40,580 nucleotides of DNA from NCBI GenBank assembly GCA_021736945.1, contig JAIPEX010000008.1, forward strand, positions 1 through 40,580. The letters run 5' to 3'. Shown piece by piece: positions 20,652 through 30,545 of the stretch (the first letter of the stretch is position 1; the number at the start of each line of letters is the position of its first letter). The notes under the pieces were generated by a model. It searched no databases. It saw only the letters and a program-made list of their open reading frames with translations, and was not told the DNA's origin. The DNA is from Halanaerobiales bacterium. GTDB lineage: Bacteria > Bacillota > Halanaerobiia > Halanaerobiales > M55B127. The translations under genes were made by a program, and so were the position numbers.

Positions 20652-22232
20652 TTGAGTAGAAGAAGTTTATTAGTATTCGGATTAGTTCTAGCATTAACAG
20701 TAGGTTTATTTGGTAACGCATTAGCACAGGAACCACAAAAAGGTGGTACCCTGGTCTTCGGTAGAGGTTCTGACGCAGTACGTCTTGATCCTGCCGATGT
20801 AACAGATGGTGAATCAGTTAAAGTTATTACAAATGTTTTTGAAGGATTAGTGAAGTATAAAGAAGGAAGCACCGAAGTTAAACCCGCTCTTGCTACACAA
20901 TGGCGTGTTAGCGATGATGGCAAAGTATGGGAATTTAAACTTCGTGAGGGTGTTAAATTCCATGACGGTTCAGATTTTACAGCTGATGATGTAGTATTTA
21001 CATTTAGACGCCAGATGAATGAAGATCACCCATACCACAAAGGTGACTTTGCTTATTGGGGTTACATGTATAATATGGTTGAGTCGGTTGAAAAAGTAAA
21101 TGATTATCAAGTTAAAATTACGCTTTCAAAACCTTATGCTCCATTCATCTATAACTTAGCTACATTCCCTTCATATATAGTTTCAGAAGAAGCTATGAAA
21201 GAAAAGGGAGTTGAGGGCTTTAGAACAGATCCAGTTGGAACTGGACCATTTGAATTTACAAATTGGGAACACGGTTCAACTATAACATTAGAGAGGTTTG
21301 AAAATTACTGGGGAGACAACGCCTATTTAGATAAAGTGGTCTTCAGTGTAGTTCCTGAAAATACTACTAGAGTAATGGGCCTTAAAGGTGGAGACCTTGA
21401 TTTAATTGATGGTCTTGGTCCTCAAAATATTGACTCTATTAAATCTGATGACAACTTAAAATTATTAACTCAACCCGGTATGAATGTTGGTTATTTAGCA
21501 ATGAATAACTTAAAAGAACCTTTTGACAATAAATTGGTAAGACAAGCAGTAAATCTAGCTATAGATAAAGAAGCAATTATTGAAGGTGCTTATAAAGGTA
21601 CTGCTGAACCTGCTAAAAATCCATTACCTCCTACTCTCTGGGGTTATAATGATGAGGTTGAAGATTATGGATATAACCCAGAGAAAGCTAAAGAGCTATT
21701 AGAAAAAGCGGGTTATCCTGATGGATTTTCTGCTGAATTATGGTATATGAGTAATCCAAGACCATATATGCCAAATGGTAAAAAAGTCGCTCAGGCAGTT
21801 CAAAGTAATCTAAAAGAAATTGGAGTAGATATTGAGCTAGTCACATATGATTGGGGTACTTATTTAGAAAAAACTGAAAATGCTGAACATGACATGGCAC
21901 TATTAGGTTGGATTGGAGACAATGGTGACCCTGATAACTTCTTATATGTTCTGCTTGATAAAGACAACACACAAAAAGGTAGTGCAGGTAATATAGCTTT
22001 CTATAGAAGTGATGAACTCCATAATATTTTAATGCAAGCTCAACAAACAATGGGTAACAGAGATCAAAGAGCTGGACTTTACAAGGCGGCACAACATGTA
22101 ATTCATGAAGATGCTCCTTGGGTACCATTGAGTCACGTAACTAAAGCAATGGGCTCAGCTCAAGATGTAAATGGTTTTGTCATTCACCCAACAGGTGGAG
22201 TTTATTTACAAAATACATGGATTGAACAGTAA
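20652..22232 (+). CDS. Peptide ABC transporter substrate-binding protein (family 5), set 1
   Basis: A 526-residue periplasmic binding protein of the DppA/OppA family. The signal peptide of about 25 residues ends NALA before Gln26, a signal peptidase I site. There is no Cys for lipid attachment, unlike the lipoprotein binding proteins of one-membrane Firmicutes. The family signature region reads AKNPLPPTLWGYNDEVEDY, then PEKAKELLEKAGYPDGF; the early DPADVTDGES and FKLREGVKFHDG are also typical. Di- or oligopeptides are the likely ligands; nickel or sugars are taken by some relatives. TTG start with AGGAGGAG eight bases before. First of five genes; a hairpin separates it from the permease. Confidence 0.93.
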   Translation: MSRRSLLVFGLVLALTVGLFGNALAQEPQKGGTLVFGRGSDAVRLDPADVTDGESVKVITNVFEGLVKYKEGSTEVKPALATQWRVSDDGKVWEFKLREGVKFHDGSDFTADDVVFTFRRQMNEDHPYHKGDFAYWGYMYNMVESVEKVNDYQVKITLSKPYAPFIYNLATFPSYIVSEEAMKEKGVEGFRTDPVGTGPFEFTNWEHGSTITLERFENYWGDNAYLDKVVFSVVPENTTRVMGLKGGDLDLIDGLGPQNIDSIKSDDNLKLLTQPGMNVGYLAMNNLKEPFDNKLVRQAVNLAIDKEAIIEGAYKGTAEPAKNPLPPTLWGYNDEVEDYGYNPEKAKELLEKAGYPDGFSAELWYMSNPRPYMPNGKKVAQAVQSNLKEIGVDIELVTYDWGTYLEKTENAEHDMALLGWIGDNGDPDNFLYVLLDKDNTQKGSAGNIAFYRSDELHNILMQAQQTMGNRDQRAGLYKAAQHVIHEDAPWVPLSHVTKAMGSAQDVNGFVIHPTGGVYLQNTWIEQ

Positions 22233-22267
22233 TTAAAAGTATAGCTATTTTGACCATTTGAAAAATT

Positions 22268-22305
22268 ACCTGCTGGTTGTATATTCTCTACAATCAGCAG
22301 GTTTA
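22268..22305 (+). terminator. Intercistronic hairpin after binding-protein gene 1
   Basis: ACCTGCTG (22268-22275) pairs with CAGCAGGT (22294-22301), extended inward by TTGTA/TACAA, followed only by TTTA. The weak T run suggests partial termination or protection of the upstream mRNA. Confidence 0.65.
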
Positions 22306-22354
22306 CTATATTATTATAATTAATATCATATTCTAGAATTAGGAGAGTTCTTAA

Positions 22355-23356
22355 ATGTTTAGGTATATAATAAAAAGATTACTTTATATAATACCAGTAT
22401 TATTAATAATGTCTTTTTTAATATTTGGTATGGTTAATTTAATTCCCGGTGATCCAGCACAGATAATGCTGGGCCAACATGTTACTGAAGAAGCATTAGA
22501 AGTAGCACGGGAAAGAATGGGATTAAATGATCCCTTTTTGGTTAGATATGGACGCTTTTTAACTGATATTGTACAGTTGGATTTTGGTGAATCTCTTATA
22601 TCTAAGCGACCAGTTTCTACTATTTTGCAAGAAAAATTACCAGCTACGATTGAGCTCACAACTTTTGCTATGATTTATGCGTTAATAGTGGGAGGTTTAG
22701 CTGGTGTTATTTCAGCTTGGAAACAAAATTCAATTTTTGACTATATTTCAATTACTATAGCACTCTTTGGAATTTCAATGCCTATTTATTGGTTAGGTTT
22801 TATGCTTATCTTGTTATTTTCAGTTTTTCTAAATATATTACCAACGGCTGGTCGGTTAGCTGCTGAGATAGATCCTTCAGTTCTAAAGACGAACTTTTTT
22901 CTCATAGAAAGTTTAATCACTGGTCAATGGGAAATATTTAGATCTGCTGCAAAACATATTATATTGCCCGGTATAGCATTGGGAACAATTCCAATGGCTA
23001 TTATTGCCAGGATGACTAGATCTTCTCTATTAGATGTCTTAAGACAGGATTACATGAGGACTGCAAGGGCTAAAGGCCTAAAATTTAGAGATGTTTTCGT
23101 TCATGCTATTAAAAATGCCGCAATTCCTATAACTACTGTATTTGGTATGCAATTTGGTAGATTAATGGCCGGGGCAGTATTGACGGAAACAGTATTTGCT
23201 TGGCCCGGTATGGGGAAATGGTTATTAGACGGTATTTTACAGAGAGATTTCCCCGTGGTAATTGGTGCAACATTGACAGTTACCTTCTTATTTGTGTTAG
23301 TAAATCTATTGACGGATTTAACCTATTCATTATTAGATCCGCGTATTAAATATTGA
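22355..23356 (+). CDS. Peptide ABC transporter permease, DppB type, set 1
   Basis: A 333-residue inner-membrane protein with about six helices. The start MFRYIIKRLLYIIPVLLI and the following VNLIPGDPAQIMLG are hallmark DppB/OppB sequence. The coupling (EAA) loop is seen around DYMRTARAKGLKFRDVFVHAIKNAAIP, and the C-terminus ends LTYSLLDPRIKY as in the family. TAGGAG lies 12 bases before ATG. It should form a heterodimer with the DppC protein encoded 23 bases later. Confidence 0.95.
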   Translation: MFRYIIKRLLYIIPVLLIMSFLIFGMVNLIPGDPAQIMLGQHVTEEALEVARERMGLNDPFLVRYGRFLTDIVQLDFGESLISKRPVSTILQEKLPATIELTTFAMIYALIVGGLAGVISAWKQNSIFDYISITIALFGISMPIYWLGFMLILLFSVFLNILPTAGRLAAEIDPSVLKTNFFLIESLITGQWEIFRSAAKHIILPGIALGTIPMAIIARMTRSSLLDVLRQDYMRTARAKGLKFRDVFVHAIKNAAIPITTVFGMQFGRLMAGAVLTETVFAWPGMGKWLLDGILQRDFPVVIGATLTVTFLFVLVNLLTDLTYSLLDPRIKY

Positions 23357-23379
23357 TAATTGAGGAGTTATTGTAAATT

Positions 23380-24594
23380 ATGAAAAGTAAAGCAAATGAA
23401 AAAGAAGTTGTTAACAAAGCTAAAAAATCTAGTTTAATAAAAGATGCTTGGAAACGTTTAATGAGAAATCGTTTGGCAGTATTGGGTATGATTATTTTGG
23501 CGATATTAGTATTAGTTGCCATTTTTGCTCCTTTAATTGCGCCTTATGATCCTACTAAAATAAACTTTGGGGATGAAGGTGTTCCCCCATCTTGGTGGGG
23601 ATCGGAAGAAGCTGAGCAGTTTCAACCTGCAGCAAATAATGAGCAAAGTACGACCCAATCTGACCAGGAGGGAACAAGTGGTCAGGGAAGTTGGACTTCT
23701 GGAGAGACTGAGCAAGAGTCATCACAAACCCAATCAAACTCTAATTCAAGTTGGAGTTCTGGGAGTGAAGATTCTACGGTAGATGAAAGTGAAGGTTCTG
23801 AGAGTTCTTCTGGAAGCTGGACTTCGTCCTCAGAAAGTAGTATTGAAGAAGAAGCTTTCAAACAGGATTCTTCTCAGGGAGAATCTGGTAACACTGTTCG
23901 TGAAAAACAAACTACTGATAATTTTTATATATTAGGTACTGACCAAATGGGCAGAGACTTATTTTCCAGAATTATCTATGGAGCAAGATTATCTCTACTA
24001 GTAGGTTTTGTATCAGTGGGGATTTCATTATTAGTTGGTACAACTTTAGGATTAATATCAGGTTTTTATGGCGGTAAAATTGATACCTTAATTATGAGAT
24101 TCATGGATATATTATTATCTTTTCCATATATACTTTTAGCTATTTTTATAGTAGCAATTTTAGGTCGCGGTTTACCTAATGCTATGATAGCGATTGGTAT
24201 TGTTGGTATACCGAGATTTGCTAGAGTGGTCAGAGGCCAAGTACTTTCAGTTAAAGAAGAAGAATATGTAATGGCCGCAAAGACAATGGGGGCCAATAAT
24301 TTCTGGTTAATATCAAGGCACATTTTTGTTAATTCACTATCTCCTTTAATTGTCCAGACCACCATGAGTTTTGCTACTGCTATCTTAAATGCAGCTGCAT
24401 TAGGTTTTTTAGGTTTAGGTGCTCAGGCTCCAACACCTGAATGGGGGGTTATGCTTTCAGATGCACGTTCAGCCATGCTTACAGCTCCTTGGATAATAAC
24501 TTTCCCCGGAATAGCCATTATATTAAGTGTTCTAGGCTTTAATTTATTAGGAGATGGATTAAGAGACAGTCTTGATCCTAGACAGAAAAAATAA
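23380..24594 (+). CDS. Peptide ABC transporter permease, DppC type, with Ser/Glu-rich insert
   Basis: A 404-residue permease, about 114 residues longer than the paralogue at 29673 (290 residues). The framework is normal: first helix at about 31-55 (VLGMIILAILVLVAIFAPLIAPYDP), LGTDQMGRDLFSRIIYGARLS from 185, five further helices, the coupling loop EEYVMAAKTMGANNFWLISRH, and the ending GLRDSLDPRQKK. Between residues about 68 and 183, in the loop that should face the periplasm, lies an insert of low complexity. It is rich in Ser, Glu, Gln, Gly, Thr and Asn and strongly acidic, with three loose repeats GSWTSGETE (103-111), SSWSSGSED (123-131) and GSWTSSSES (145-153). The frame is intact across it and the flanks are full length, so it is not a frameshift. 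Confidence 0.93.
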   Translation: MKSKANEKEVVNKAKKSSLIKDAWKRLMRNRLAVLGMIILAILVLVAIFAPLIAPYDPTKINFGDEGVPPSWWGSEEAEQFQPAANNEQSTTQSDQEGTSGQGSWTSGETEQESSQTQSNSNSSWSSGSEDSTVDESEGSESSSGSWTSSSESSIEEEAFKQDSSQGESGNTVREKQTTDNFYILGTDQMGRDLFSRIIYGARLSLLVGFVSVGISLLVGTTLGLISGFYGGKIDTLIMRFMDILLSFPYILLAIFIVAILGRGLPNAMIAIGIVGIPRFARVVRGQVLSVKEEEYVMAAKTMGANNFWLISRHIFVNSLSPLIVQTTMSFATAILNAAALGFLGLGAQAPTPEWGVMLSDARSAMLTAPWIITFPGIAIILSVLGFNLLGDGLRDSLDPRQKK

Positions 24595-24632
24595 ATGATA
24601 TTGATGATATATGAAAAAATTGAGGTGGATTT

Positions 24633-25637
24633 ATGAGTAGACAGAGAAATTATGAAGAGAAGTTATTAGAATTAAAAAATGTAACCACCAGCTTTGATAC
24701 TGATGATGGTAAGGTTACTGCTATAGAAAATATAAGTTTTGAATTACGTAAGGGAGAATCACTTGGAATATTGGGAGAATCAGGCTGTGGAAAGAGCGTT
24801 ACATCTCTTTCTATTATGCGACTTCTTCCCGATGGAGTAGGTTATGTAGAAAATGGAGATATCATCTTTCAAGGCGAAAATTTGTTAGATTTAAAAGAGG
24901 ATAAAATGAGAAGTTATAGGGGAAACAAAATGTCAATGATTTTCCAAGAACCTATGACTTCCTTGAACCCTGTATTTAAAGTTAAAAAGCAATTGGTAGA
25001 AGTTTATACTACCCATCAGGATGTTAATAATAAGGAAGCTTATAATAAAGCTCTGGATATTTTGGATACAGTTGGTATTCCCGACTCAAAAAGTGTGATA
25101 GAAAAATATCCTTATGAATTAAGTGGTGGAATGAGACAGAGAGTTATGATTGCAATGGCTTTAGCGTGCCAACCTGCATTACTTATTGCAGATGAACCCA
25201 CTACTGCTTTAGATGTAACAATTCAAGCTCAAATTCTTAAGCTAATGAATGAATTAAAGCAAAAAATAAATTCTTCTATTATGTTGATAACACATGATTT
25301 GGGTGTAATAGCTCAGATGGTAGAACGAGTTCTAGTATTTTATGCAGGACAGATTGTAGAAAGAGCCCAAATAGACGACCTTTATGAAAATCCAAAACAT
25401 CCATATACAAAAGGATTAATTAAATCAATTCCTCGTATTGGAAACAAAAGGCAAAGATTAGATACAATTCAAGGGATGGTACCCTCTCCTTTTGAGTTCC
25501 CTCAGGGTTGTAGATTTAATCCGAGGTGTGAACATGTAATGGATATTTGTAAAGAGAAAGAACCACCCGAAGTGAATGTTGGAGATAGGCATTCTGCAAA
25601 ATGCTGGCTACATGTTGATGAAGGGGGGAGGAAATAA
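24633..25637 (+). CDS. Peptide ABC transporter ATPase, DppD type
   Basis: A 334-residue ATPase with Walker A GESGCGKS (48-55), signature LSGGMRQR near 165, Walker [15 protein letters not shown] near 184 and switch His in MLITHDLGV. The C-terminal oligopeptide-ATPase extension has PHPYTKGL-like [13 protein letters not shown] and four Cys ([14 protein letters not shown] and a later CW), as in members that bind an Fe-S cluster. It pairs with DppF encoded next, with one base of overlap (TAATG). The same two ATPases probably also serve the second permease set, which has none. Confidence 0.95.
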
Positions 25638-26611
25638 TGAATGATAATAAAACAATATTAAAAGTAGAAAATCTAAAAAAATATTTCCCCCAGAAATCAG
25701 GATTTTTCAAACAAAAAATAGAATATCTTAAGGCAGTTGATGATATTAGTTTTGAACTTAAAGAAAATGAAACCCTGGGATTAGTAGGAGAATCAGGTTG
25801 TGGTAAATCTACTACGGGAAGAACTATCCTCAGAGTACATGAACCTACTGATGGGAAAGTTTTCTTTAGAGGAGAAAATATTGCTGATATAGAAGAAAGT
25901 GAACTACAAAAAATAAGAAAAGATATGCAGATGATATTTCAGGATCCTTTTGCTTCACTAAATCCTCGTATGACAGTAAAAAATATCATTTCTGAAGGGA
26001 TGAGAATTCACGGGGTAGGTAATAAGAAAAGCCGGATGGAACGAGTTGAGGAACTAATGTCTATAGTCGGATTGAGACCTGAATATATGTTTAGGTACCC
26101 TCATGAATTTTCAGGAGGTCAAAGACAAAGAATAGGAGTTGCAAGAGCCTTAGCTTTAGATCCTAAATTAATTATTTGTGATGAACCGGTTTCTGCTTTA
26201 GATGTTTCAATCCAGGCTCAGGTTCTTAATTTACTTATGGATTTACAGGATGAATTTGATTTAACCTTTATCTTTATAGCACATGATCTTTCTGTTGTAG
26301 AACATATAAGTGATCGTGTGGCTGTGATGTATTTAGGTAAAATTGTGGAGCTTACAACTAGTGACAAACTTTATTCTAAGCCACTCCATCCATATACAAA
26401 AGGATTATTACATTCTGTACCCGAACCTAACCCTAAAGTTCCAATGGGAGAGGTTTCTCTTAAAGGAGATATCCCTAGTCCTGTTAATCCTCCTTCTGGT
26501 TGTAGTTTTAGAACAAGATGCCCGAAAGCGCATGAGAGATGTAAAAAAGAAGAGCCCGAATTTAGAGAATACGAAGATAATCATTATGCTGCGTGTCATT
26601 TATTAGATTAA
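25637..26611 (+). CDS. Peptide ABC transporter ATPase, DppF type
   Basis: A 324-residue ATPase. Walker A GESGCGKS is at 51-58, then the family's [14 protein letters not shown], signature [15 protein letters not shown], Walker [15 protein letters not shown] and switch His in [11 protein letters not shown]. The C-terminal part has [16 protein letters not shown] and the Cys motif [17 protein letters not shown] overlaps the last base of the dppD stop; GGGGGGAGG lies just inside dppD. It is the last gene of the operon, with a strong terminator 30 bases after its stop. Confidence 0.95.
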
Positions 26612-26986: not shown

Positions 26987-28561
26987 ATGAATAATTTTAA
27001 AAAATTAAGTATTTTAGTAGTATTGACATTGGTTGTTGCTTTATTTAGTTTTACTGCTTTAGCTCAAGACGAAGGTGAGTATGGTGGTACTTTCATTTTT
27101 GGGCGAGGCGGGGACTCTGTAGGATTAGATCCGATACAAGTAACCGATGGTGAATCTTTTAAGGTTACTCAGCAAATTTATGATACTGTTGTCATGTACA
27201 AACCCGGAACTACAGAAGTAATTCCAGGTCTTGCTGAAGAATGGGATGTATCTGAAGATGGTAAAACATGGACTTTCTATTTAAGAGAAGGAGTAAATTT
27301 CCATGATGGAAATCCTGTAAATGCTGAAGCTGTTAAATGGAACTTTGAACGTTGGGGTAATACTGACCATCCTTACCATATTGGTGGAGATTTCACTTAT
27401 TATGGTTATATGTTCCAGGATTATCCAGGTGTTATCAAAGAAGTTAAAGCATTAGACGAATATACAGTTAGATTTATTTTAAATGAACCTCAGGCGCCAT
27501 TTTTAGCTAACTTAGCAATGGTTTCATTCGGTATTGCTAGTCCTGAAGCTGTTAAAGAATATGGCGAAGATTACTTCAAAAATCCTGTAGGTAGTGGACC
27601 ATTTAAGTTTGTAGAATGGAGACAAGGTGATAGAGTAGTTCTAGAAGCAAATGAAGATTATTGGAATGGCCGTCCATATGTGGATGAAGTTGTCTTTAGA
27701 TCAATACCTGATAATGGTGCACGTTATATGGAATTAAGATCAGGTTCTATTGATATGATGGATTATATTAATCCTGAAGATGTACAAAGTGTTAGAGATG
27801 ATGAAAGTTTAGACTTAGTATTAAGACCTAGTTTCAATGTTGGTTATTTTGCTATGAATATGGAATTTGAACCATTTGATAATCTAAAAGTTAGAAAAGC
27901 TTTTGCACACGCGATTAATAAAGAAGCTTTAATCGGGGCTTTCTACGCTGGCTTAGCAGAACCTGCTAAGAATCCATTACCACCTGCAATTTGGGGTTAT
28001 AATGATGAGATCGAAGATTATCCTTATGATCTAGAAAGAGCAAAAGAACTTTTAGCAGAAGCCGGATATCCTGATGGTTTTGAATTCGACTTTTATTATA
28101 TGCCTGTACCAAGACCATATTTCCCACAACCTAAAATGATTGCTCAGGCAATTCAATATTATTTAAGTGAAATTGGCGTTACTGCTAATTTACTTTCATA
28201 TGATTGGGGTACTTATTTAGATAAATATTACAATGATGAATTCCAATCTTATATTTTAGGATGGACTGGAGATAATGGTGACCCAGATAACTTCCTATAT
28301 GTACTACTTGATAAAACTCAAAATCATGGTGGATATAGAAGTGATGAGTTACATGAGGTATTAATAGAAGCTCAAAGAACAGTAGATAGAGAAAAAAGAA
28401 CCGAATTATATATGGAAGCTCAAGAAATTATTCATGCTGACGTACCTTGGGTACCAATTGCACATTCAACACCACCATTAGTTAAGAAAACAATGGTTAA
28501 AAATTATGTGCCTAACCCAACTAGTACTGAGAAATTCCACAGAGTATGGCTAGATGAATAA
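26987..28561 (+). CDS. Peptide ABC transporter substrate-binding protein (family 5), set 2
   Basis: A 524-residue paralogue of the protein at 20652, sharing long stretches such as AEPAKNPLPP, WGYNDE, EAGYPDGF and GDNGDPDNFLYVLLDK. The signal peptide of about 26 residues ends TALA before Gln27, again without lipobox. The ligand is probably a peptide of a different kind from set 1, but this is not readable. GAGGAGGAAG lies upstream of ATG. It has its own promoter and is followed by a strong hairpin before the permease gene. Confidence 0.93.
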   Translation: MNNFKKLSILVVLTLVVALFSFTALAQDEGEYGGTFIFGRGGDSVGLDPIQVTDGESFKVTQQIYDTVVMYKPGTTEVIPGLAEEWDVSEDGKTWTFYLREGVNFHDGNPVNAEAVKWNFERWGNTDHPYHIGGDFTYYGYMFQDYPGVIKEVKALDEYTVRFILNEPQAPFLANLAMVSFGIASPEAVKEYGEDYFKNPVGSGPFKFVEWRQGDRVVLEANEDYWNGRPYVDEVVFRSIPDNGARYMELRSGSIDMMDYINPEDVQSVRDDESLDLVLRPSFNVGYFAMNMEFEPFDNLKVRKAFAHAINKEALIGAFYAGLAEPAKNPLPPAIWGYNDEIEDYPYDLERAKELLAEAGYPDGFEFDFYYMPVPRPYFPQPKMIAQAIQYYLSEIGVTANLLSYDWGTYLDKYYNDEFQSYILGWTGDNGDPDNFLYVLLDKTQNHGGYRSDELHEVLIEAQRTVDREKRTELYMEAQEIIHADVPWVPIAHSTPPLVKKTMVKNYVPNPTSTEKFHRVWLDE

Positions 28562-28590
28562 TTAAGGAGATAACAGATTAAATTAATTGG

Positions 28591-28623
28591 TATGCGGCCA
28601 TTGTTTAATGGCCGCATATTTTT
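28591..28623 (+). terminator. Hairpin with T run after binding-protein gene 2
   Basis: TATGCGGCCATT (28591-28602) pairs perfectly with AATGGCCGCATA (28607-28618) around GTTT, followed by five T bases. It has full terminator form yet lies between genes of one transport set, so partial read-through is expected. Confidence 0.85.
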
Positions 28624-28651
28624 GATATTAGAAGGGAGAGATCAATAAAGG

Positions 28652-29656
28652 ATGATTAGTTATATAATTAAAAGACTTCTTGCACTTATTCCGGTAATCA
28701 TTGGTGTTGCACTTGTGGTTTTCCTAATTATTCATTTAATTCCTGGTGATCCTGCCCAAACGATGTTGGGAGAAAGAGCTACTGTAGAATCTATTGAACG
28801 CCTTAGAGAATCTATGGGGTTAAATCAGCCTTTATATATACAGTTTATAAATTTTTTCAGAGATTTATTGAGTGGTGATTTGGGACGCTCAGTGATGAGT
28901 AATAATCCGGTGATAGACGAAATATCAGTAAGATTTCCCGCAACATTAGAATTATCTTTTTTTGCTATGATATTTGCAGTGGTAGTAGGAATCCCTGCGG
29001 GTATATTTGCTGCTACACATCAGAATTCATTATTTGATAATTTTAGTATGCTTGTTGCTTTAATAGGGGTTTCAATGCCGATTTTTTGGTTGGGCTTGAT
29101 GTTAATCTGGTTGTTTGCTGTAATATTAGGTTGGCTACCACCATCATCAAGATTAAGTGTGGGAATAGAAATGGAATATATAACAAATATATTAATTATA
29201 GATAGTATATTACAATTGAATTGGGCTGCTTTTAAAAATGTATTAAGTCATTTAATCTTGCCTGCTATTGCTTTAGGTACAATACCAATGGCTATAGTTG
29301 CGAGAATGACCAGGTCCAGTATGTTAGAAGTATTGAAAAAAGATTATATTCGAACAGCTTATGCTAAAGGATTACAAGACCGAATAGTGGTTTATAAACA
29401 TGCCTTAAAAAATGCTTTTATTCCTATAATAACTGTAGTTGGTTTACAATTTGGTGTGTTATTGGGTGGAGCTGTTTTAACGGAGACTATTTTTTCCTGG
29501 CCAGGTCTTGGGAAATACTTAGTTGATGCTATATATGCTCGTGATTTCCCAGTAGTTCAGGGTGGAATATTGTTTTTCGCAATTACATTCGTATTTGTTA
29601 ACTTACTAGTTGATATTTCTTATGCCGCAATTGATCCGAGAATCGAATATAATTAA
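28652..29656 (+). CDS. Peptide ABC transporter permease, DppB type, set 2
   Basis: A 334-residue membrane protein with the DppB start MISYIIKRLLALIPVIIGVA and IHLIPGDPAQTMLGERAT. The coupling loop is DYIRTAYAKGLQDRIVVYKHALKNAFIP and the ending is DISYAAIDPRIEYN. It is paralogous to the gene at 22355 throughout. GAAGGGAGAG lies upstream of ATG. It pairs with the DppC gene 16 bases on. Confidence 0.95.
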   Translation: MISYIIKRLLALIPVIIGVALVVFLIIHLIPGDPAQTMLGERATVESIERLRESMGLNQPLYIQFINFFRDLLSGDLGRSVMSNNPVIDEISVRFPATLELSFFAMIFAVVVGIPAGIFAATHQNSLFDNFSMLVALIGVSMPIFWLGLMLIWLFAVILGWLPPSSRLSVGIEMEYITNILIIDSILQLNWAAFKNVLSHLILPAIALGTIPMAIVARMTRSSMLEVLKKDYIRTAYAKGLQDRIVVYKHALKNAFIPIITVVGLQFGVLLGGAVLTETIFSWPGLGKYLVDAIYARDFPVVQGGILFFAITFVFVNLLVDISYAAIDPRIEYN

Positions 29657-29672
29657 GGTGGGAGTGAATTAG

Positions 29673-30545
29673 ATGTCAAAACTTGAAAATAAAAATCGGC
29701 CTAGCAATCCTTGGTATGAGGCTGGTAGGAGATTATTAAAAAGTCGAATCGGTGTTTTAGGTATTGTTTTTATAGGGGTTTTGCTACTAGTAGCACTTTT
29801 TGCTCCCTTATTAGCACCACATGATCCATTTGAACAAAACATTATGATGAGATATCAAGCTCCCTCCTCAGAATATTTATTAGGTACTGATGAAATGGGC
29901 AGGGATATTTTAAGTAGAATTATATATGGTTCAAGAATTTCTTTGCAAGTAGGTTTGTTTTCTATAGGTATAGCATTAGTTACCGGAGTATTTTTAGGTC
30001 TCCTAGCTGGTTATTATGGCGGAGTTCTTGATATGTTAATCATGAGGGTAATGGATGTAATGTTAGCTTTCCCGGCAATTTTATTAGCTATCGCTATAGT
30101 TGCAATTTTAGGTCCCCAATTGCGGAATGCAATGTTAGCGATTGGGATAATTAATATACCTCGTTTTGCAAGAATTGTCCGTTCTTCTGCAATTTCAATA
30201 AAAGAAAGTGAATATATTGCAGCGGCACGAATGATGGGGGCAAGTGATGTAAGAATTATATTTTATCATTTATTACCCAATGCGATGGCGCCTCTTATTG
30301 TACAGACTACATTAAGTATTGCTACTGCTATTCTTGAAGCAGCAGCACTTAGTTTTCTTGGCTTGGGAGCACAGCCACCAACTCCAGAATGGGGAGCAAT
30401 GTTAAGTGATGCTAGAAGTTCACTACAAAGAGCACCATGGGTTGCAACTTTCCCTGGGCTTGCAATTATTTTTGGAGTGTTAGGATTTAACTTATTGGGT
30501 GATGGTTTAAGAGATGCGCTTGACCCCAAAATGAAAAATGCATAA
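29673..30545 (+). CDS. Peptide ABC transporter permease, DppC type, set 2
   Basis: A 290-residue permease of ordinary family length. The first helix ends LLAPHDP at about 52, and only 17 residues later comes LGTDEMGRDILSRIIYG (70 on). This makes it the natural reference for the oversized DppC of set 1. The coupling loop is SEYIAAARMMGASDVRIIFYH, and the ending is LRDALDPKMKNA. No ATPase genes follow: a terminator comes 8 bases after the stop. The two ATPases of set 1, encoded 3 kb upstream, are the likely partners. Confidence 0.95.
   Translation: MSKLENKNRPSNPWYEAGRRLLKSRIGVLGIVFIGVLLLVALFAPLLAPHDPFEQNIMMRYQAPSSEYLLGTDEMGRDILSRIIYGSRISLQVGLFSIGIALVTGVFLGLLAGYYGGVLDMLIMRVMDVMLAFPAILLAIAIVAILGPQLRNAMLAIGIINIPRFARIVRSSAISIKESEYIAAARMMGASDVRIIFYHLLPNAMAPLIVQTTLSIATAILEAAALSFLGLGAQPPTPEWGAMLSDARSSLQRAPWVATFPGLAIIFGVLGFNLLGDGLRDALDPKMKNA

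Follow-up and report, generated by a model that had tools for sequence, protein, structure and literature searches.

A long acidic, tryptophan-containing loop, predicted to be disordered, in a DppC permease from one lineage of Halanaerobiales

What might a DppC permease do with an acidic segment of about one hundred residues between TM1 and TM2? This question is raised by a locus in the window, by which we mean the whole 40,580-nucleotide stretch of DNA from a Halanaerobiales bacterium that was analysed (contig JAIPEX010000008.1). At positions 20652-26611 the window encodes a substrate-binding protein, two permeases, and two ATPases, as in DppABCDF importers, and all of these genes are on the + strand. 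The first is dppA1 (20652..22232), predicted to encode a soluble binding protein of SBP family 5 on the basis of PF00496 and alignment to 8z1y_F. It is followed by dppB1 (22355..23356) for the partner permease, dppC1 (23380..24594) for a peptide ABC transporter permease with an enlarged TM1-TM2 periplasmic loop, and the ATPase genes dppD and dppF (24633..26611), which were recognized as open reading frames and whose orthologues follow in the same order in two related genomes (G001 and G005) and, with a contig break intervening, in a third (G007). None of the importer proteins of this operon reached an NCBIfam equivalog cut-off, and dipeptide transport is putative. The C-terminal Cys cluster of DppD and DppF appears to resemble the iron-sulphur site reported for DppD/DppF of E. 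coli.

The dppC1 reading frame is 404 codons long with zero internal stops. It contains PF12911 (OppC_N) at residues 18-69 and PF00528 (BPD_transp_1) at residues 220-403, both above their gathering cut-offs. E. coli DppC (PDB 8z1v) matched it with E=1.6e-77 in an alignment that spans TM1 and the whole of BPD_transp_1. In this alignment residue 73 of dppC1 corresponds to residue 72 of 8z1v and residue 183 to residue 79, leaving 109 residues in place of the 6 in E. coli, or approximately 103 more between the PPxW and GTD motifs. The insert proper (residues 74-179; 23599..23916, + strand), supported by the 8z1v alignment, the structure prediction, and substitution rates, is in frame, about 103-105 residues long, rich in Ser, Glu, Gln, and Gly, and flanked by the conserved sequences PPSWW (residues 69-73) and DNFYILGTD (residues 180-188). 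Homology to E. coli DppBCDF places the TM1-TM2 loop on the periplasmic side of DppC. In that complex both DppB and DppC are capped by DppA (PMC12136057). A preliminary description of this DNA had reported a large in-frame insert that sits next to the docking face in the first external loop and is acidic with no charge balance, and each of these points was borne out: over 105 residues the insert has a net charge of -19 and a hydropathy of -1.55, with 3 Trp and only 5 other bulky hydrophobic residues. Equally correct was its statement that the loop is far longer than that of the paralogue dppC2 (29673..30545, + strand; an open reading frame with a measured short loop), the distance from the end of TM1 (APx) to GTD being 133 residues in dppC1 and 20 in dppC2.

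The gene dppC2 belongs to a second set of genes for a binding protein and two permeases (26987-30545) that adjoins the first and has no ATPase genes of its own in view. This second set probably shares the DppD and DppF of the first. It lies beside the operon in the window and starts there in G001, and in G005 and G007 none was seen next to the operon. We considered the idea that the long loop is coupled to this ATPase-less set and rejected it, as the G005 and G007 contigs have no second set beside the operon.

How unusual is a loop of this length? We measured the stretch between the end of TM1 and GTD across the family, excluding from the count the rows with an insert of the Sphaerochaeta type described below. 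Nearly all of the short relatives, drawn from several phyla, had 20 residues here (range 20-24 in all those measured), versus 124-141 in the long-loop clade. A distance of about 20 residues is thus a common, though not a defining, trait of DppC and OppC, and dppC1 departs from it with 133. The other full-length DppC homologues among the matches listed have open frames of approximately 270-354 amino acids. The long-loop rows were monophyletic (100/100) in a tree built from 62 DppC domains.

A comparison of DppC proteins from the order, which the preliminary description had proposed, placed the insert in four genomes that represent three Halanaerobiales families (the window genome, here G000, and G001, G005, and G007), with Trp residues spaced 15-23 apart. 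The orthologue from G001 is 90% identical and that from G005, a member of another family, is 67% identical, both over the full length. In G007, from the third family, a contig end interrupts the gene: C42 holds the N-terminal part together with the loop, and C267 holds the C-terminal part. This assembly break (L074, L075) is inside the long-loop gene downstream of the insert. Only short-loop DppC proteins were found in the remaining genomes of the order (41 relatives searched). Orthologues of DppA (76-97% identity) and DppB (76-96%) occur in exactly the same 4 of 59 genomes of the class, and the A-B-C-D-F gene order is common to all four, split over two contigs in G007. The nearest outgroup operons, which belong to two further families of the class and whose DppA is 56-59% identical, have short DppC loops wherever DppC is readable. 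No additional long-loop member was found in a phylum-wide sample of 398 genomes. One scan of a named genome collection gave just two records with the long loop from Halanaerobiales, CAJXKY010000031.1 (uncultured Halanaerobiales bacterium) and JADQBU010000306.1 (Halanaerobiales bacterium Soudan_4). The long loop is therefore not a general trait of Halanaerobiales and is confined to one orthologous dpp operon. This operon is patchy within the genus, being present in G000 and G001 and not found in G002, G003 (97% complete), or G004.

The window and its relatives are draft assemblies of many contigs, and the preliminary description had raised both a sequencing error and restriction to a single assembly as grounds for discarding the loop. 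Neither applies. The insert is present in four assemblies, one from a different family at 67% identity, and its reading frame is under purifying selection, leaving next to no room for an artefact of sequencing, assembly, or frameshift, an explanation we regard as refuted. Between G000 and G001, the insert had dN 0.190, dS 1.09, and omega 0.174 (bootstrap 0.068-0.323), and the dppC1 flanks had omega 0.024. Based on these values, the insert is a translated segment of protein under purifying selection that evolves several times faster than the core.

AlphaFold2 (27-row alignment) gave pLDDT <50 over residues 65-191 with practically no helix or strand, and only a moderate confidence for the model as a whole (pTM 0.52). 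The disorder prediction suggested in the preliminary description thus returned an unstructured insert; low confidence alone is no proof of disorder, and the composition agrees with it. One explanation is that the insert is a low-complexity spacer or brush with no specific partner, in which repeats expanded within a tolerant loop and selection acts only on hydrophilic, acidic, and unstructured character in brine. The near absence of bulky hydrophobic residues is consistent with this, as are an omega about 7 times that of the flanks, loops from other families that are only 22-31% identical to the window loop, and DNA repeats at the Trp motifs that suggest growth by duplication. An omega well below 1 counts against it. 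So does the failure of the loop to match any other protein: searched against the genomes of 41 relatives at E<=1, a model of the loop (A6), with limited sensitivity for very divergent Trp repeats, matched the four DppC genes alone. Because A6 matched no other protein, the loop is not a repeated element or a general habit of these proteomes.

A further difficulty for a spacer comes from the Trp residues, which are kept with similar surroundings and regular spacing in the four orthologues even though Trp has a single codon. The preliminary description had noted three Trp-centred repeats and we recovered all three, each conserved in G001 and each holding one of the insert's Trp residues: GSWTSG (W105; residues 103-108; 23686..23703, + strand; direct repeat D1), SSWSSG (W125; residues 123-128; 23746..23763, + strand), and GSWTSS (W147; residues 145-150; 23812..23829, + strand). 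At the DNA level they coincide with a 15-nt direct repeat spaced by 60 and 66 nt. The only regular feature of the insert is the motif [GS][GS]W[ST][ST], in 2-4 copies every 15-23 residues, and the Trp spacings in the four orthologues are 20, 22; 20, 21; 23, 16; and 21, 15, 18. We defined this motif on G000 and G001 and then sought it in the other two orthologues. It occurs twice in G005 (p=0.0005 versus composition shuffles) and, read strictly, once in G007 (p=0.02), or four times with a looser motif that also accepts Asn, Asp, and Ile; these p-values are lenient because the motif and spacing range were picked after the sequences had been seen. Between G000 and G001, residues within 4 positions of a Trp were conserved at 23 of 26 sites, versus 48 of 77 for the rest of the insert (one-sided p=0.0095).

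Our preferred explanation, by a small margin, is that the insert is a flexible, multivalent Trp arm that catches the importer's own binding protein. We put this forward as possible, short of probable, with the function inferred, and judge it about equally likely as a spacer with no partner. The preliminary description had named a tether to the binding protein, contact with the peptidoglycan or outer membrane, and a salt-adapted spacer as candidate roles, and all three stay putative. The kept Trp neighbourhoods favour the arm, and the fast, poorly alignable evolution favours the spacer. A disordered arm would have grown, within a single lineage of dipeptide importers from halophiles, out of the periplasmic TM1-TM2 loop of DppC. 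Lying on the docking face for DppA, it would present its Trp residues as several weak hydrophobic stickers, with the acidic residues holding it soluble and extended. In a salty periplasm with screened charge contacts, it could then concentrate its own binding protein locally or stabilize the docked complex. Because high salt would screen charge pairing and favour hydrophobic contacts, the work of binding would fall to the Trp, and that of keeping the chain soluble to the acidic matrix. This proposal has weaknesses. Composition and length alone can maintain low-complexity loops. Also, DppA1 has a pI of 4.8, and since both it and the arm are acidic, repulsion is expected at low ionic strength. 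A comparison of DppA across the clade for a gained basic or aromatic patch gave 53 clade-specific invariant columns, no clear patch, and a DppA1 that is still acidic.

The partner permease bears on the question of docking. Scoop loops are permease loops that contact binding proteins (PMC11414716). In E. coli, the DppB scoop enters the cleft of DppA, where E41 and R42 pair with R383 and D436 of DppA; changing both E41 and R42 to Ala halved ATPase activity, with Gly-Leu uptake still possible in the assay (PMC12136057). The window dppB1 aligns end to end with 8z1v_A, and this alignment and a family comparison place Gln41-His42 (codons 22475-22480) at the position of Glu41-Arg42. The pair is Gln-His in the window and G001 and Thr-His in G005 and G007. 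The Glu-Arg pair is kept in the outgroup operons and in the DppB paralogue in the window. Judging from these alignments, the long-loop clade has swapped the DppB Glu41-Arg42 pair for Gln/Thr-His on the same docking face as the loop, a change that we noticed in the course of this analysis. At the positions that match E. coli Arg383 and Asp436, DppA1 retains Arg and Asp (in RPY and GWxGDNGDPDNF, compared with 8z1y_F).

The arm may be tied to the disappearance of the charged scoop pair from DppB, an association that is only suggestive. The loop, the scoop change, and the operon are all on one stem branch, so their association amounts to a single event. The Glu41-Arg42 scoop is also not universal in the wider DppB family. 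A distant DppB subfamily (L023-L030) has a Val-His scoop together with a short DppC loop; the scoop change therefore does not require the arm, and we rejected the idea that the two always go together. A stronger version of the proposal, in which a disordered Trp arm on DppC assumes the docking or sealing done elsewhere by the charged scoop of DppB, an adaptation to the weakness of salt bridges at high salt, seems to us unlikely.

Two other functions were weighed. The arm could bind another part of the envelope, such as peptidoglycan, an outer-membrane porin or lipoprotein, or another transporter, and so place the importer near the site of substrate entry. Halanaerobiales are diderm organisms and an extended chain of approximately 105 residues could bridge much of the periplasm. 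Multivalent Trp motifs also follow a known logic of binding, that of the GW/WG-repeat hooks by which GW182 engages Argonaute, with spaced Trp, small neighbours, and a disordered polar context. The likeness is one of sequence logic only, as these hooks are eukaryotic, cytoplasmic, and unrelated. The insert had zero matches in Pfam (E<=10) or the PDB (E<=10), peptidoglycan-binding domains included, and an acidic cell wall would repel an acidic chain. On balance we think an envelope partner improbable. Less probable still is that the acidic chain gathers cations (Ca, Mg, K) or cationic peptides at the importer's entrance. The net charge of the insert is -19 to -24 across the clade, and what speaks for this explanation is the 25-32 Asp/Glu in the 117-134 residues around the loop. 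However, conserved Asp-x-Asp or EF-like spacing was not seen, weak cation sites would be saturated at molar salt, and the conservation of Trp is left unexplained.

What makes the loop worth pursuing is that the TM1-TM2 length of DppC is nearly fixed across the compared relatives from several phyla and is more than 6 times longer, and selected, in one halophile lineage. Should the arm bind DppA, it would act as a non-covalent tether within a family whose binding protein supposedly reaches the permease by diffusion, and it would reveal a replacement of salt-bridge docking in brine. A literature search gave no paper on a long, disordered, or otherwise extended loop at TM1-TM2 of OppC or DppC, in agreement with the first reading of this DNA, which knew of no described role.

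Among characterized importers, the closest is E. coli DppABCDF (PDB 8z1v-8z1z; PMC12136057), the same five-gene importer, with DppA, DppB, and DppC all alignable to the window proteins. Compared with it, the window DppC has about 103 additional residues from PPxW to GTD and the window DppB is without the Glu41-Arg42 scoop. By its domains and operon, dppC1 thus encodes a true DppC that departs in loop length and in the scoop pair of its partner. A large periplasmic loop located at the binding protein is also known from another type I importer permease, the P2 loop of MalF, which in simulations moved around MalE as a rigid body and to which a work cited in that study ascribes a role in signalling (PMC8134467). 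P2 is a different loop in a different family, and the dppC1 insert, between TM1 and TM2, is predicted to be disordered rather than folded like P2. In GlnPQ and OpuA, substrate-binding domains are tethered by linkers, and the flexible chain raises the local concentration of the binding protein (PMC8025302, PMC11065425). The same logic would hold here if the insert is a tether, but in GlnPQ and OpuA the binding domain is fused covalently, whereas the dppC1 insert contains no domain and DppA1 is a separate soluble protein. Finally, in Sphaerochaeta and its relatives an insert of 236 aa occupies the same TM1-TM2 site of OppC-like permeases (L050:8154-8861; also L038, L044, L046, L048, L051-L053, L107-L110); of 296 genomes sampled from that phylum, 5 carry it. 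This insert has no sequence resemblance to the dppC1 insert and is confidently predicted to fold (pLDDT 92.5, mostly helical), with no fold match in the PDB at E<=0.001. Because some spirochaetes place a folded domain there, the TM1-TM2 loop is an insertion site used more than once, one that tolerates insertions and may reward them.
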